Source of the DNA: Asanoa hainanensis
Lineage (GTDB): Bacteria > Actinomycetota > Actinomycetes > Mycobacteriales > Micromonosporaceae
Length of the DNA stretch: 64,000 bases
Assembly: GCF_900188485.1 (NCBI RefSeq)
Contig: NZ_FZPH01000006.1
Span: 216,618 to 280,617, forward strand
Direction: 5' to 3'
Positions 15,357 to 19,978 of this stretch are shown in pieces; within the stretch, counting starts at the first letter, position 1, and every line of letters begins with the position of its first letter. The position numbers and the translations under genes are program-made. Under the pieces are notes generated by a model. It searched no databases, was not told the DNA's origin, and worked only from the letters and a program-made list of their open reading frames with translations.

Positions 15357-15380
15357 GTTATTCTCATCCTGAGTTATTCT
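15357..15380. promoter_or_regulatory. tandem 8-bp repeats upstream of the NrtR-type operon
   Basis: GTTATTCT occurs at 15357-15364 and again at 15373-15380, 37 bases before the start of the Nudix regulator. The period is 16 bases. CTCA and TGAG between them add partial dyad symmetry. NrtR-family regulators usually bind in their own promoter region, so this is the best operator candidate for the four-gene operon. Confidence 0.5.
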
Positions 15381-15416
15381 TAGGCAGAGAAGTTCTCCGA
15401 GCGAGAAGGACAGACC

Positions 15417-16172
15417 GTGGTCAACGAGCAGGAGTTCCTGGCGGGGTACGACCCGCGGGCTTACCCCGCGGTGGCAGTCACGGTCGACGTGGTCGCGCTG
15501 ACCATCCGCGACGGTGAGCTGCAGGTCCTGCTGATCCAGCGCGCCGCCCCGCCGTTCGCGGGCTTCTGGGCCCTGCCCGGCGGCTTCGTGCGGCCCGAGG
15601 AGGACATCGCCGTCGCCGCCCGCCGCGAGTTCGCCGAGGAGACCGGGCTGGGCGGCGAGCCGCTGCGCCGGGTCCACTTCGAGCAGCTCGCCTCGTACGG
15701 CACGCCCGACCGCGACCCACGCATGCGGATCTTCTCGATCGCCTACCTCGCCTTCGCACCCGACCTGCCCGAGCCCTCGGCCGGTTCCGACGCCGGCGAC
15801 GCCGAGTGGCTGGCCGTGACCGCGCTGCCCACCCGGGAGCTGGCCTTCGACCACCGCAAGATCGTCGACGACGGGCTGGAGCGGGCCCGCTCCAAGCTCG
15901 AATACACGCCGCTCGCGACCCGGTTCGTCGGCGAGGAGTTCACCATCGCCGACCTGCGCGAGGTCTACGAGACGGTCTGGGGCCACCCGCTGCACGCCGG
16001 CAACTTCCACCGCAAGGTGCTCTCCGTGCCGGGGCTCGTCGAGGGCACCGGCGCGACCACCGAGCACGGCGGGCCGCGCGGCGGACCCCGCGCCCGCCTC
16101 TACCGGGCCGGCGACGCCAACCTGCTGCACCCCGCCCTGCTGCGCCCGGCCCGAGAGGAGACGGTCCGGTGA
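15417..16172 (+). CDS. NrtR-type transcriptional regulator with Nudix domain
   Basis: 251 residues; GTG start with GAGAAGGA upstream. The N-terminal Nudix domain (about 18-140) carries a complete Nudix box from GGFVRPEEDIAVAARRE to FAEETGL. The C-terminal winged helix follows (about 150-215; EEFTIADLREVYETVWG then GNFHRKVL). In the NrtR family the Nudix domain senses ADP-ribose-type NAD metabolites and the winged helix represses NAD-related genes. An intact box means hydrolysis is possible too. It heads a coupled operon (GTGA overlap with the next gene). Confidence 0.87.
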   Translation: MVNEQEFLAGYDPRAYPAVAVTVDVVALTIRDGELQVLLIQRAAPPFAGFWALPGGFVRPEEDIAVAARREFAEETGLGGEPLRRVHFEQLASYGTPDRDPRMRIFSIAYLAFAPDLPEPSAGSDAGDAEWLAVTALPTRELAFDHRKIVDDGLERARSKLEYTPLATRFVGEEFTIADLREVYETVWGHPLHAGNFHRKVLSVPGLVEGTGATTEHGGPRGGPRARLYRAGDANLLHPALLRPAREETVR

Positions 16173-17134
16173 CTACGTTGGAAGACGCGATCCGGCTGGT
16201 CAACGAGGCCGGGACCGACGAGGAACTGTTCGGTTCGGCGGACCCGCACCGTGGTTACCTGCGGCTGGCCGCGCTGCTGCACCCCGACCGGGCCGAGCCC
16301 GACGCCAAGGCGGCGGCGACCGACGCGTTCGTGATGCTCACCAACCGGTGGCGGGCCCGGGGCACGGTGGCCTTCGGCCGCTACCGGGTCGGTGCGGTGG
16401 CACACACCGGTGACCTGGCCAACCTCCACACCGTCGGCCGTGGGCTCTTCCTCAAGCAGCCCCGGCGGCCGGCCAACAACGACCTGATGGAGCGCGAGGC
16501 GACCGCGCTGCGCCGCATCGCGGAGGTGGGCGACCCGCGCTACCTGCCCTACGTGCCGCGGCTGGTGGACACGTTCCGGCACCGGGACCCGCGCAACGGG
16601 CAGGAACGCCGGGTCAACGTGCTGGGCTCCGTACCCCACCTGTTGAGCGTGGCCGAGGTGATCCGGATCCGACCGGACGGCCTGGACCCGCGCGACGCCG
16701 CCTGGATCTGGCGCCGCCTGCTGGTCGCGCTCGGGTTGGCGCACCGCGCCGGCGTGGTGCACGGTGCCGTGCTGCCCGAGCACATCCTGATCGAGACGAC
16801 CGACCACGGCGTGGTGCTGGTCGACTGGTGCTACTCGGTGGTCGACGGGCTCGACCACGTGCCGGCGACGGTGCCGGCCTACGCCGACTGGTACCCACCG
16901 GAGATCCACAACCGACAGCCACCCGGGCCGGGCACCGACATCGCGATGGCCGCCCGCTCGATGATCGCGCTGATGGGTGGGTACGCCCCGGCGGCCCTGG
17001 TCGCCTTCGCCGACGGTTGCTCGCTGCCGTCGGTGCGGTCCCGGCCGGACGACGCCTGGGCGCTGCTCGCCGAACTCGACGACCTGCTCGAACGACTCTA
17101 CGGCGCGCGGAAGTTCCGCCCGCTCAACCTTTAA
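16169..17134 (+). CDS. J-domain-like and protein-kinase-like fusion protein
   Basis: 321 residues from the GTG overlapping the previous stop. Residues about 25-60 look like a short DnaJ domain, with HPD at 38-40 in LAALLHPDRAEPDAKAA. A kinase-like fold follows: candidate ATP-binding Lys96 in GLFLKQPRR, helix-C Glu in LMEREATALRR, and a catalytic loop reading VVHGAVLPEHILIE where HRD is HGA. Asp219 in VLVDW could be the metal-binding Asp. The missing catalytic Asp suggests a pseudokinase or atypical kinase. The function of this combination is unknown to me. Confidence 0.72.
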   Translation: MTTLEDAIRLVNEAGTDEELFGSADPHRGYLRLAALLHPDRAEPDAKAAATDAFVMLTNRWRARGTVAFGRYRVGAVAHTGDLANLHTVGRGLFLKQPRRPANNDLMEREATALRRIAEVGDPRYLPYVPRLVDTFRHRDPRNGQERRVNVLGSVPHLLSVAEVIRIRPDGLDPRDAAWIWRRLLVALGLAHRAGVVHGAVLPEHILIETTDHGVVLVDWCYSVVDGLDHVPATVPAYADWYPPEIHNRQPPGPGTDIAMAARSMIALMGGYAPAALVAFADGCSLPSVRSRPDDAWALLAELDDLLERLYGARKFRPLNL

Positions 17135-17146
17135 GGAGGGCCCGAC

Positions 17147-18109
17147 ATGGGCAGCGGAGTCTGGTCAACCGACGTCTACGATGCCGCGGACCGCTACCGG
17201 CGGTCGAACGGCCACAGCGCCTTCGCCTACAGCGACAGCGGTGCGCGCACCGTCCACCACAAGCTCGACCCGCGCGGCACCGTCCGGGAGAGCCGGGACT
17301 CCCAGGAGCACCCGGACTCGCTGGCGATCGCGGTGGTCTTCGACGTCACCGGCTCCATGGGCGACATTCCCCGGGTGCTCCAGACCAAGCTGCCCAAGCT
17401 GCTCGGCCTGCTGCTGCGCAAGAACTACGCCCGCGACCCGCAGATCCTCTTCGGTGCGGTCGGCGACGCCACCTGCGACCGCGTGCCCCTGCAGATCGGT
17501 CAGTTCGAGTCCGACAACCGGATGGACGACGACCTCAGCCGGATCGTGCTCGAAGGTGGCGGCGGCGGCCAGATGACCGAGTCGTACGAGCTGGCCCTCT
17601 ACTACCTGGCCCGGCACACCGAGCTGGACTGCTTCACCAAGCGCGGGCGGCGCGGCTACCTGTTCGTGATCGGCGACGAGCTCGCGTACGACCGGGTCAA
17701 GGCCCGCGAGGTGCGCAACGTGTGCGGCGACGACCTGAGCGAGGACATCCCGGTGCGCCGCATCGTCTCGGAGGTGCGCCGCAAGTTCGACACCTATTAC
17801 CTGCTGCCGCGGGGCAGCAACTACGCCGGCAACACCAAGGTGCTCGACTTCTGGCGAGGGCTGCTCGGCCAGAACGCGGTCGAGCTCGACGACCCGGACG
17901 CGGTCTGCGAGACGATCGCCCTGCTGGTCGGGCTCGGCGAGGCCGCCATCGACCTGGAGGGCGGGTTGGCCGACCTGGCAGAGGTGGGTCTGCGCGCCGA
18001 GTCCGTCTCCACGGCGTTGGAGCCGGTTGACCAGGGACGCGGTCGGGTGCTGGCCACCTGGGGCCTGCCGACCACGCTCCAGGGCGACGACCGGATCAGC
18101 CGGCTATGA
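17147..18109 (+). CDS. von Willebrand factor A domain protein
   Basis: 320 residues; AAGGAGG lies upstream of the ATG. The vWA domain has a MIDAS start FDVTGSMGD (Asp66, Thr68, Ser70), a later Thr in GGQMTESYELALYY and an Asp in FVIGDELAYD. No signal peptide or membrane helix, so it is cytoplasmic. Such vWA proteins usually bind partners in a metal-dependent way. It is 12 bases after the J/kinase-like gene and overlaps the PurA-like gene by four bases (ATGA), suggesting a complex or ordered pathway. Confidence 0.85.
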   Translation: MGSGVWSTDVYDAADRYRRSNGHSAFAYSDSGARTVHHKLDPRGTVRESRDSQEHPDSLAIAVVFDVTGSMGDIPRVLQTKLPKLLGLLLRKNYARDPQILFGAVGDATCDRVPLQIGQFESDNRMDDDLSRIVLEGGGGGQMTESYELALYYLARHTELDCFTKRGRRGYLFVIGDELAYDRVKAREVRNVCGDDLSEDIPVRRIVSEVRRKFDTYYLLPRGSNYAGNTKVLDFWRGLLGQNAVELDDPDAVCETIALLVGLGEAAIDLEGGLADLAEVGLRAESVSTALEPVDQGRGRVLATWGLPTTLQGDDRISRL

Positions 18110-19395
18110 ACCACGTGCTGGTAGCCGACCTGGGATACGGCGACGCGGGCAAGGGGACCGTCGTCGACTGGTTGTGCGCGAAGGGAATTGACGGCCGTCC
18201 GGTTGCCGCAGTGGTGCGGTACAACGGGGGCGGGCAGGCCGGCCACAGTGTCGTCCTGCCTGACGGACGGCGTCATGTCTTCGCTCAGTTCGGCTCCGGC
18301 ACGTTGCGTGGCGTGCACACGCACCTGTCGCGGTTCATGGTGGTCGACCCCTTGGCGCTCGTCGTCGAGGCCGACCACCTGGCCGACATCGGGGTGCCGG
18401 ACGCGTTCGACCGCCTCACGGTCGAGGGCGACGCGCTGCTCGCCACGCCTTACCACCGGGCCGCCAACCGCGCCCGGGAGATAGCCCGTGGGGCCCACCG
18501 GCATGGGTCCTGCGGCAAGGGGGTGGGCGAGGCTATGGGGTACGCGCTCGCCCACCCCGCCGACGCGCCCCGGGTAGCCGACACACTGGCGCCCGGGGTG
18601 CTCGGCGCGAAGCTGGCGGTGCTGCGGGACCGGCTGCTCGACGAGCTCGGCCCGCTCGAGGTGCCACCGGTCGACGCGACGGTCCGGGCGTTCAGCGCGT
18701 TCGCCGCGCGGGTGCCCATCGTCACGCGGGGCTTCCTCGGCAACCTGCTGGCCGTCGGCCCGGTGGTTTTCGAGGGAGCCCAGGGTGTGCTGCTCGACGA
18801 GTGGCACGGCTTCCACCCGTACACGACGTGGAGCACGACGACGTTCGACAACGCGGAGACGCTGCTGGGCGAGGCGGGTCACGGCGGCAGCGCGACGCGG
18901 CTGGGCGTGCTGCGGATCGTGACCACCCGCCACGGAAACGGCCCGCTGGTGACCGAGGACCCGGCGCTGCCGTTGACAGACCCGAACAACCCGACCAACC
19001 GGTGGCAGGGTCGCTTCCGGTTCGGGCACTTCGACGCGGTGGCGCACCGGTACGCGGTGGACGTGACCGGCGGTGTCGACGGGATCGCGCTGACGCATCT
19101 CGACATCGCCTCGCCGGCGCTGAAGTTCTGCGCCGCCTACGACTGGACCGACCGGTTGCTGCCCGGGCAGGTCGGCAACCTGAGCCGGCAGGAGGCACTG
19201 ACCCGGCGGCTGTTCAGCACGCGGCCGCGTTACTCCTCCGCGCCGGTCGACTGGCCGGGCGCGGTGTCCGCGGCGCTCGACGTGCCGGTGGTGGTGACCT
19301 CGCACGGCCCGACGGCCGACGCCAAGCAGGTGCTCAGGCCGAACTGGGCTGCCAGAGCTCACCCCGCAACAGCTGGCGTGCGCCAAGCCAGCTGA
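18106..19395 (+). CDS. divergent adenylosuccinate synthetase homologue (PurA-like)
   Basis: 429 residues with the PurA fold: P-loop-like GYGDAGKGTVVDW keeps the equivalents of Asp13 and Lys16; RYNGGGQAGHSV keeps the catalytic His (47); EGAQGVLLDEWHG and THLD are also present. Changes: QWGDEGKGK has become GYGDAGKGT, the TTGRGIGP loop reads GSCGKGVGE, and the aspartate-binding TTGRRRRTGWLD loop reads NRWQGRFRFGHFD. It is therefore probably not the housekeeping PurA but a ligase using another nucleotide or amino donor. Last gene of the NrtR-type operon; its 3' end overlaps the convergent TetR gene by 62 bases. Confidence 0.8.
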   Translation: MNHVLVADLGYGDAGKGTVVDWLCAKGIDGRPVAAVVRYNGGGQAGHSVVLPDGRRHVFAQFGSGTLRGVHTHLSRFMVVDPLALVVEADHLADIGVPDAFDRLTVEGDALLATPYHRAANRAREIARGAHRHGSCGKGVGEAMGYALAHPADAPRVADTLAPGVLGAKLAVLRDRLLDELGPLEVPPVDATVRAFSAFAARVPIVTRGFLGNLLAVGPVVFEGAQGVLLDEWHGFHPYTTWSTTTFDNAETLLGEAGHGGSATRLGVLRIVTTRHGNGPLVTEDPALPLTDPNNPTNRWQGRFRFGHFDAVAHRYAVDVTGGVDGIALTHLDIASPALKFCAAYDWTDRLLPGQVGNLSRQEALTRRLFSTRPRYSSAPVDWPGAVSAALDVPVVVTSHGPTADAKQVLRPNWAARAHPATAGVRQAS

Positions 19396-19978
19396 AGTTC
19401 ATCAGTCGCGCGGCCGAGTGGTCGGGGTCGGCCTCGGGGTGGTCGGCCAGCCAGTCGGCGATCGACTCGGCCGCGCCGACCAGGGCGTACGCGCTGGCGG
19501 TCAGGTCCTCGTCGCGGGCTGTTCTGCCCTGGCTCTCCACTGCCCTCTTGAGCATGCCGGCGACGACCTCGACGATGCGGGTGCGCAGGGCCGCGAGGTC
19601 GTACGACGGCCCGCTCCTGGCCTGGCGGTAGAGCACGGCCCAGCCGTCGCGGTGGGCGCCGACGAAGCCGAAGAAGCCGCGCAGGCCGCGCCAGAGCTGC
19701 TCGTCGGCGGGCAGGTCGTCGGCCACGACCGCCACGATCGACTCCAGCAGGCGGGTGCCCTCGCGGTGGACGCAGGCGCGGAACAGGTCGTCCTTGCTGC
19801 CGAGGTACGCGTACACCATGGGCTTGGAGATCCCGGCCTCTTCGGCGATCTCGTCCATGCTCGCGTCGTGGAAGCCGCGACGCGAGAAGACCCGCACGGC
19901 CGCGTCGAGCATCTGCTGCTCTCGCACCGCACGGGGAAGGCGCTTGAAGGTCGGCCCGCCTGGCACGCTTGCCAGCAT
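19334..19978 (-). CDS. TetR-family transcriptional regulator
   Basis: 214 residues. The N-terminal HTH (about 18-65) reads REQQMLDAAVRVFSRRGF, then MDEIAEEAGISKPMVYAYLGSKDDLF. The C-terminal ligand domain is helical. Divergent from the SCP2/acyl-CoA dehydrogenase/acyl-CoA synthetase operon with 61 bases between starts, so it probably represses that operon and itself in response to an acyl-CoA or lipid. Confidence 0.9.
   Translation of the reverse strand: MLASVPGGPTFKRLPRAVREQQMLDAAVRVFSRRGFHDASMDEIAEEAGISKPMVYAYLGSKDDLFRACVHREGTRLLESIVAVVADDLPADEQLWRGLRGFFGFVGAHRDGWAVLYRQARSGPSYDLAALRTRIVEVVAGMLKRAVESQGRTARDEDLTASAYALVGAAESIADWLADHPEADPDHSAARLMNFSWLGARQLLRGELWQPSSA

Follow-up and report, generated by a model that had tools for sequence, protein, structure and literature searches.

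The window analysed here, a stretch of 64,000 nucleotides from Asanoa hainanensis (contig NZ_FZPH01000006.1, positions 216,618 to 280,617 of the forward strand; coordinates below are those of the stretch), contains a tight cluster of four genes. They encode an NrtR-type repressor, a predicted J-domain/pseudokinase fusion (JK), a vWA protein and a ligase related to adenylosuccinate synthetase (PurA). The cluster spans 15417–19395 on the forward strand, and each gene overlaps or abuts the next (Table 1). The nrtR stop codon (TGA, 16170–16172) and the JK start codon (GTG, 16169) form a four-base GTGA overlap; the JK gene ends with TAA and the vWA ATG follows 12 bases further on; the vWA stop codon (TGA, 18107–18109) and the ligase ATG at 18106 form an ATGA overlap, again of four bases. 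A first-pass annotation, made from the sequence alone, had proposed a four-gene operon with these three joints, and direct reading of the sequence bears it out. Its four domain calls (NrtR-type, J/kinase-like, vWA and PurA-like) proved right as judged from Pfam, homologues and structural models. No σ70 promoter was found 5' of the operon by a scan that actinobacterial promoters may escape.

Table 1. Features of the four-gene locus, in window coordinates
Feature	Position	Strand	Description
Probable NrtR operator	15361–15406	+	Three tandem 14-base imperfect palindromes, from sequence
NrtR-type repressor gene	15417–16172	+	251 aa, GTG start; Nudix and winged-helix DNA-binding domains (Pfam)
J-domain/pseudokinase (JK) gene	16169–17134	+	321 aa, GTG start; assigned from homologues and predicted structure
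Gap between JK and vWA genes	17135–17146	+	12 bases, GGAGGGCCCGAC; GGAGG-type ribosome site
vWA protein gene	17147–18109	+	320 aa, ATG start; complete MIDAS-type metal site
PurA-like ligase gene (adenylosuccinate synthetase fold)	18106–19395	+	429 aa, ATG start; PF00709 match

Is this gene order kept outside Asanoa? Actinobacterial loci were collected with the ligase as the only query (the best 80 of 229 relatives), and the core genes in them were placed by six-frame search. NrtR, JK, vWA and ligase follow one another on one strand in 75 of the 80 loci, which cover Micromonosporaceae, Streptosporangiaceae, Thermomonosporaceae and Streptomyces. Because loci found by the ligase alone keep this order, the grouping of the four genes is more than chance, and the doubt raised in the first-pass annotation, that the order might not be conserved elsewhere, falls away. 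The exceptions are two loci that lack JK (L006 and L045) and two at contig edges in which only the ligase is present (L005 and L074); in L041 the contig begins within nrtR. Besides the four genes themselves, an acyl-CoA dehydrogenase family, near 53 loci, is the only neighbour shared across families, and flanking genes are common to 42–46 of the Micromonospora and Asanoa loci; the gene finder behind both results missed some genes, including core ones.

The distribution of the set is patchy. The vWA gene is present in 37 of 81 genomes of a Micromonosporaceae sample (the window genome counted), from 19 of 44 genera, and in at least 2 of 396 genomes across Actinomycetota, one of them the window genome; the latter figure is a lower bound, with at most five candidates scored per genome among the matches listed. 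In three of the Micromonosporaceae genomes (G479, G501 and G520) the vWA match has one in-frame TGA, and these are perhaps decayed copies. Twenty-one plasmid records also match the vWA protein. Plasmids of Rhodococcus and Tsukamurella have the order JK-vWA-ligase-Nudix, and on alphaproteobacterial plasmids NrtR-like genes flank the set in differing positions. Agrobacterium and Rhodovulum have a divergent NrtR-like gene 5' of the set, and Acetobacter has an NrtR-like frame there. Near the Variovorax copy no NrtR-like gene was detected, and the Rhodovulum stretch yielded no ligase.

The ligase matches Adenylsucc_synt (PF00709) with 188 bits, above the cut-off, compared with 604 bits for a second, canonical PurA encoded elsewhere in the genome. 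The earlier description of the ligase as divergent therefore stands, and the idea that it might be the only adenylosuccinate synthetase of this genome is rejected. In Asanoa ishikariensis, the nearest relative fetched, the ligase is 97% identical. Residues were compared over 159 ligase homologues (110 clusters at 90% identity) in the numbering of E. coli PurA. With PurA the ligases share the fold, a P-loop-like GDxGKG motif and, in most, a C-terminal S-x-G-P; the phosphoryl-transfer residues D13, K16, H41 and Q224 are present in 159/159 and the guanine-binding D333 in 158/159. This PurA-like fold and the kept residues make phosphorylation of a carbonyl oxygen driven by guanosine triphosphate (GTP) likely, and the ligase is predicted to use GTP.

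The substrate-facing residues are another matter. In PurA the 5'-phosphate is contacted by N38, T129, T239 and R143, the last from the other subunit. Unlike PurA, the ligases have Gln in place of N38 (158/159), Cys or Val in place of T129 (157/159) and His in place of V273 (159/159) in the nucleotide pocket, and in the aspartate loop Trp or Phe in place of T300 (147/159) and Gln in place of T301 (156/159). Conservation is lost in the R131 and R143 columns, and the position of R303 is variable. The loop mostly reads [W/F]-Q-G-x-F-R, with some uncertainty in the placing of gaps; since the residue after the Gly varies and the later Arg is kept in 158/159, alignment cannot decide which PurA arginine this Arg corresponds to. 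Around the base pocket of both PurZ and PurA stand the counterparts of G12, N38, A39, Q224 and V273; the V273 counterpart lies near the ribose C2', and R303 contacts the ribose O2' and the aspartate (PMC8342488, with PurZ numbers mapped to E. coli PurA positions in this analysis). The residue pattern fits an enzyme in which phosphoryl transfer has been kept and the substrates are new. With the nucleotide- and aspartate-facing residues replaced in nearly all 159 homologues, the ligase is predicted to be neither PurA nor PurZ. It also differs from PurA in that its gene adjoins a vWA gene, in a genome that has a canonical PurA besides.

The set's 52 ligases group together in a 71-row tree, as a single clade separate from PurA (SH-aLRT 99), and the actinobacterial ligases nest within phage diversity. 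With weak support at 26 of its 68 inner branches and a very long PurZ branch, the tree gives a hint that genes were exchanged with phages.

The vWA protein of the window has no Pfam match. Its predicted structure (predicted local distance difference test, pLDDT, 89.3) has integrin I/vWA domains as its best Foldseek matches (E 1e-6), and the metal ion-dependent adhesion site (MIDAS), comprised of DxT/SxS and a distal Asp, is complete. The metal-site residues D66, T68, S70 and D177 are invariant in 45/45 rows. The protein also matches PHROG 2971 (phrog_2971, function not assigned) with an E of 3.9e-73. In the TerY-P type of vWA/kinase/phosphatase triad the third partner is a PP2C phosphatase, and no Pfam match to PP2C was found among the four genes.

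The JK protein of the window is under the Pfam cut-offs for both of its domains (Pkinase 18 bits, DnaJ 12.6 bits). Its homologue in L110 exceeds both (DnaJ 2e-25, Pkinase 44 bits), and DnaJ is above the cut-off in L125, L126 and L092 as well. The predicted structure (pLDDT 94.8) is a kinase fold with PknB and Pim1 as best matches, and the HPD motif of the J-like domain at the N-terminus is present in 31 of 38 aligned rows. The DFG Asp is kept in 25 of these rows and the HRD catalytic Asp in one; because the latter is gone in 37/38, JK appears to be a pseudokinase in nearly all aligned rows. A jumbo-phage copy outside the 38 rows (L092) retains HGD and DFG. JK is not needed everywhere, as it is missing in two actinobacterial loci and was unrecognised in 31 of the 80 viral loci collected by means of the ligase. 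L006 and L045, in which no JK lies between nrtR and vWA, are natural tests of the need for it. In phages without a recognised JK a conserved protein of about 220–260 residues is encoded just 5' of the vWA gene (L089, 6215–6919; L287, 4336–5067; L282, 3793–4449; L088, 7777–8568). It may stand in for JK, and has no Pfam match in the two copies scanned (L089 and L282).

Of the four proteins, only the regulator fits squarely into a known family (NUDIX 80.8 bits and NrtR_WHD 42 bits, both above the Pfam cut-off). Three palindromes of the TTCTCA-N3-TGAGA type start at 15361, 15377 and 15393, spaced 16 bases apart and immediately 5' of nrtR, and are a probable NrtR operator. The first-pass annotation had placed the regulator's site at 15357–15380, where this predicted operator indeed begins. 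Among 74 related upstream regions, that of the window included, TTCTCANNNTGAGA occurs with at most one mismatch in 70 (no mismatch in 47, one in 23, two in 3 and four in 1); shuffled upstream regions (20 shuffles each) never had fewer than two mismatches. Since an exact match to TTNTTCTCANNNTGAG occurs only once in the genome, at this operon, control by the repressor seems local here, and no further exact site pointed to a wider NrtR regulon in this genome. Matches to TTNTTCTCANNNTGAG with one mismatch number four (two of them overlapping), compared with one in a reversed-pattern control.

As in this protein, the NrtR regulators of metabolism of nicotinamide adenine dinucleotide (NAD) combine Nudix and winged-helix domains and have a palindromic operator before their own gene (PMC6800001). 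In M. smegmatis, ADP-ribose makes NrtR let go of DNA; that protein regulates nadABC and no longer has its Nudix residues (PMC6800001), whereas the window NrtR keeps the full Nudix box and has its one exact operator at its own genes. The strict Nudix-box pattern is intact in 70 of 79 NrtR proteins. Because the full box is kept, the window NrtR may hydrolyse its ligand as well.

As a module, the set belongs largely to phages. Matches to the vWA protein come from 207 phage records (188 of Mycobacterium phages, I3 among them, 10 of Rhizobium phages, 6 of Vibrio phages and 3 others), matches to JK from 191 and matches to the ligase from 226, some of which are probably other PurA relatives. In phage I3 (Bixzunavirus) a kinase, a vWA protein, a small gene and the ligase lie in series. 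Two samples of viral loci were examined, one drawn from the vWA alignment (the best 80 of 415 relatives) and one from the ligase alignment (the best 80 of 410); the samples overlap in contigs, many contigs are near-copies and some may be fragments. In the vWA-based sample, 67 of 80 loci have JK-vWA-ligase, five vWA-ligase, three NrtR-vWA-ligase-JK and two vWA-ligase-JK; two short contigs (L159 and L160) have JK-vWA, and one locus, L128, has vWA alone with 8 kb of downstream sequence. In the ligase-based sample, vWA is present in 76/80, the other four loci starting less than 900 bases from a contig end, and JK was recognised in 49/80. From these counts vWA and ligase are a near-constant pair, with JK as a frequent third. 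No fusions among genes of the set were found in the 160 loci. Pairwise distances of JK, vWA and ligase correlate over 36 thinned loci (r 0.68–0.80), and none of 999 permutations gave values as high. The first-pass annotation had overlooked this wide phage occurrence, as well as the rebuilt ligase pocket and the loss of the catalytic Asp from JK.

In the phage records listed, annotation of the vWA and kinase proteins hardly ever goes beyond 'hypothetical protein' or 'kinase', and the ligase has a name derived from PurA or PurZ, which its residues contradict. An R2K-clade ATP-grasp gene lies downstream of the ligase in 18 viral loci (L148, L151, L155 and others), seemingly of one phage clade.

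What accompanies the set in viruses? On a 512-kb contig (L120) the order is nrtR, nadV, vWA, ligase and JK, then an NMNAT-type (CTP_transf_like) gene, and NrtR and nadV adjoin each other there and in L118 and L235. The neighbour scan drew on 135 of 225 non-core viral proteins, the other 90 being mostly short, with four of 542–1145 residues. At the top of the Pfam counts stood NUDIX (6), NAPRTase (5), NAMPT_N (5) and NrtR_WHD (3); among the rarer families, with 25 of 64 families listed, were NadA (1), NADAR (1), RtcB (2) and HAD_SAK (2). The nadV gene (PF04095) is present in 4 of 50 viral records in one set and 16 of 50 in the other, so a link with NAD as a general rule for phages was rejected; it was the position of nadV, not its presence, that gave a signal. 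In 9 of 16 records it is no more than 8 kb from the set, compared with 1.26 expected (P 4e-7). This test is conservative in that four records with nadV close by were dropped, two as near-copies and two as contigs shorter than 60 kb; the 8-kb limit was chosen after the loci had been seen, and related phages may be dependent. In the same 100 records the control gene ThyX is within 8 kb in 3 of 21 (1.64 expected, P 0.22) and the control RtcB in 4 of 12 (1.07 expected, P 0.016). In one-sided comparisons the clustering of nadV exceeds that of ThyX and RtcB together (P 0.018) and of ThyX (P 0.009), with P 0.21 against RtcB. Clustering of nadV is thus above that of a neutral gene, but RtcB may cluster too. 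The link of the set with NAD that the first-pass annotation had suggested gains support, since Nudix, nadV and NrtR families lead the identified viral neighbours and nadV is clustered.

The four RtcB genes near the set belong to four viral lineages (L237, 2266–4977; L265, 7476–8657; L144, 14889–16043; L174, 12830–14155), and the L237 copy is intein-like, with Hint and LAGLIDADG domains. Of 50 viral records that carry the set, a sample that is not neutral, 18 have TROVE (Ro60-like) genes; these adjoin the set or lie a few kb from it in L101 (343–1980), L268 (9070–10605), L089 (11566–13071) and L260 (8188–9816).

The co-inherited module, the conserved predicted operator, the kept catalytic residues and changed pocket of the ligase, the apparent pseudokinase, the intact vWA metal site and, in some of the phages, a preference for NAD-salvage and ADP-ribose genes as neighbours are read from sequence, and on these we build a proposal in which ligand, substrate and product are inferred. 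We tentatively prefer a system in which an NrtR repressor governs a GTP-driven ligase complex, induced by ADP-ribose, that acts on an NAD-derived nucleotide. NrtR would repress the operon for a three-protein complex until breakdown of NAD yields ADP-ribose, or a kin molecule, that binds NrtR and lifts repression. The ligase would then phosphorylate a carbonyl oxygen with GTP, as PurA does on inosine monophosphate (IMP), and an amine would replace that oxygen. Its substrate would probably be not IMP but a nucleotide derived from NAD or ADP-ribose, and the amine donor probably one other than free aspartate. The vWA protein, with a Mg-dependent binding surface, and the J-pseudokinase would form a scaffold without catalytic activity of its own, which binds a client or turns the ligase on. 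In phages this core, in some cases accompanied by nadV and NMNAT, would serve to control the NAD pool while infection proceeds. A more specific form of the proposal, which we regard as rather doubtful, is that a PurA descendant steered by vWA and J-pseudokinase attaches a non-aspartate amine, which could belong to a protein, to the purine of a molecule derived from NAD or ADP-ribose, as a new modification of a nucleotide or protein induced by NAD breakdown.

Several observations weigh against the ADP-ribose-induced complex. The clustering near the set is not specific to nadV, as the RtcB figures above indicate, and 80 of the 100 viral records with the set have no nadV, albeit in records that may be fragments. 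The neighbourhood in phage I3 is without any annotated NAD gene. The operator is exact only once in the Asanoa genome, so that NrtR apparently does not control NAD genes there. JK, moreover, is absent from 2/80 actinobacterial loci and unrecognised in 31/80 ligase-found viral loci.

Might the ligase instead act on a macromolecule? In this somewhat less likely alternative the ligase would use an amine on a protein or peptide that vWA and J present to it, or would modify a purine in RNA, for marking or repair, and NAD genes would adjoin the set because RNA repair and ADP-ribosylation consume NAD. vWA and J domains bind proteins, and the ligase pocket is without conserved contacts for a small nucleotide and free aspartate. 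For another system, ADP-ribosylated proteins are the predicted targets of vWA proteins that occur with NrtR-type regulators (PMC9503650). RNA-repair neighbours point the same way: the nearness of RtcB (4/12 within 8 kb), the two RtcB and two HAD_SAK among the 135 viral neighbours, and TROVE anywhere in 18/50 viral records. RtcB is, however, in just 12 of 100 viral records, at least three of the TROVE records had been chosen for TROVE and its adjacency is rare, and none of the four proteins has an RNA-binding domain. The mild clustering of RtcB led us to weigh the ADP-ribose-induced complex slightly lower and action on a macromolecule slightly higher. It is unlikely that the product is a diffusible signal, an alarmone-like purine made under stress or phage conflict, with phage copies making or removing it. 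Such a signal would suit an operon that is probably inducible, patchy in distribution and carried on phages and plasmids; no receptor or effector gene is conserved alongside, however, with only the four genes and the acyl-CoA dehydrogenase shared across families (some genes having been missed by the gene finder), and the common flanks of 42–46 Micromonospora and Asanoa loci speak for a stable site and not a variable island.

Two further alternatives take the PurA relationship at face value. A spare adenylosuccinate synthetase, yielding adenosine monophosphate when PurA is blocked and merely regulated by the other genes, would explain the common fold and the intact D13, H41, Q224 and D333. It is distinctly improbable in view of the canonical PurA in the genome, the replacement of nucleotide and aspartate residues in nearly all homologues and the near-constant pairing with a vWA gene. 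The label on the phage records would imply a PurZ-like enzyme for 2-aminoadenine DNA. The ligase matches PHROG 1211 (E 9e-73) under '2-aminooxy adenylosuccinate synthetase', and phiVC8 p27 has the same product name. PurZ and PurZ0 of Z-genome phages are likewise phage-borne PurA relatives with altered specificity (PMC8342488, PMC12884076), and 481 phage PF00709 homologues were counted where the PurZ group was characterised (PMC12884076). PurZ, however, has Ser for D13 and, in phiVC8, Asn for D333 (PMC8342488, PMC12884076), and the ligase family keeps both Asp. It also has vWA and mostly JK partners, unlike PurZ; phiVC8 PurZ falls outside the ligase clade, albeit on a long branch; and with the NCBIfam PurZ model the ligase reaches a score of 29, the cut-off being 300. 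A PurZ function is thus highly improbable, and with Ser at position 13 of PurZ (PMC12884076) and Asp in 159/159 ligases this reading was rejected. The name '2-aminooxy adenylosuccinate synthetase' on phage ligases (e.g. NC_067270 gp273), also the name of phiVC8 PurZ, is probably a mis-transfer.

How, then, does the set relate to described systems? The nearest printed idea is the ADP-ribosylglycohydrolase (ARG)-centred system, in which Nudix regulators are combined with vWA chaperones and this ligase does not figure (PMC9503650). These predicted ARG-centred systems likewise have a Nudix-type repressor, a vWA protein and an ADP-ribose theme, and are found in actinobacteria and proteobacteria. 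Their core is an ADP-ribosylglycohydrolase, often with a phosphatase, neither of which is among the four genes here; the core of the window set is the PurA-like ligase with the J-pseudokinase. The word 'adenylosuccinate' is absent from the main text of that paper. Phage NAD salvage (NadV and NMNAT) and NARP pathways, named in PMC9503650 and PMC13232231, give the ligase no place as described, and the set is near nadV in a minority of phages. A search of PADLOC for anti-phage systems gave only kinase-type matches and one in the Nudix region (PDC-S07), and none for the vWA protein or the ligase. The first-pass annotation knew of no described pathway with this gene set, and open-literature searches found no published description of it either, though an earlier mention is possible. 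Because the set departs from PurA, PurZ and the ARG system in features that would mark it as one of them, we rate it, as judged from its sequences, as a new category of system. If the product of the ligase is not adenylosuccinate, then a widely used annotation is mistaken and purine chemistry gains a new reaction. The NrtR-type regulator and nadV neighbours would put the set into the contest between phage and bacterium over NAD.

At its 3' end the ligase gene of the window meets a convergent TetR-like frame (19334–19978, reverse strand), and the 3' ends of the two overlap by 62 bases (19334–19395).

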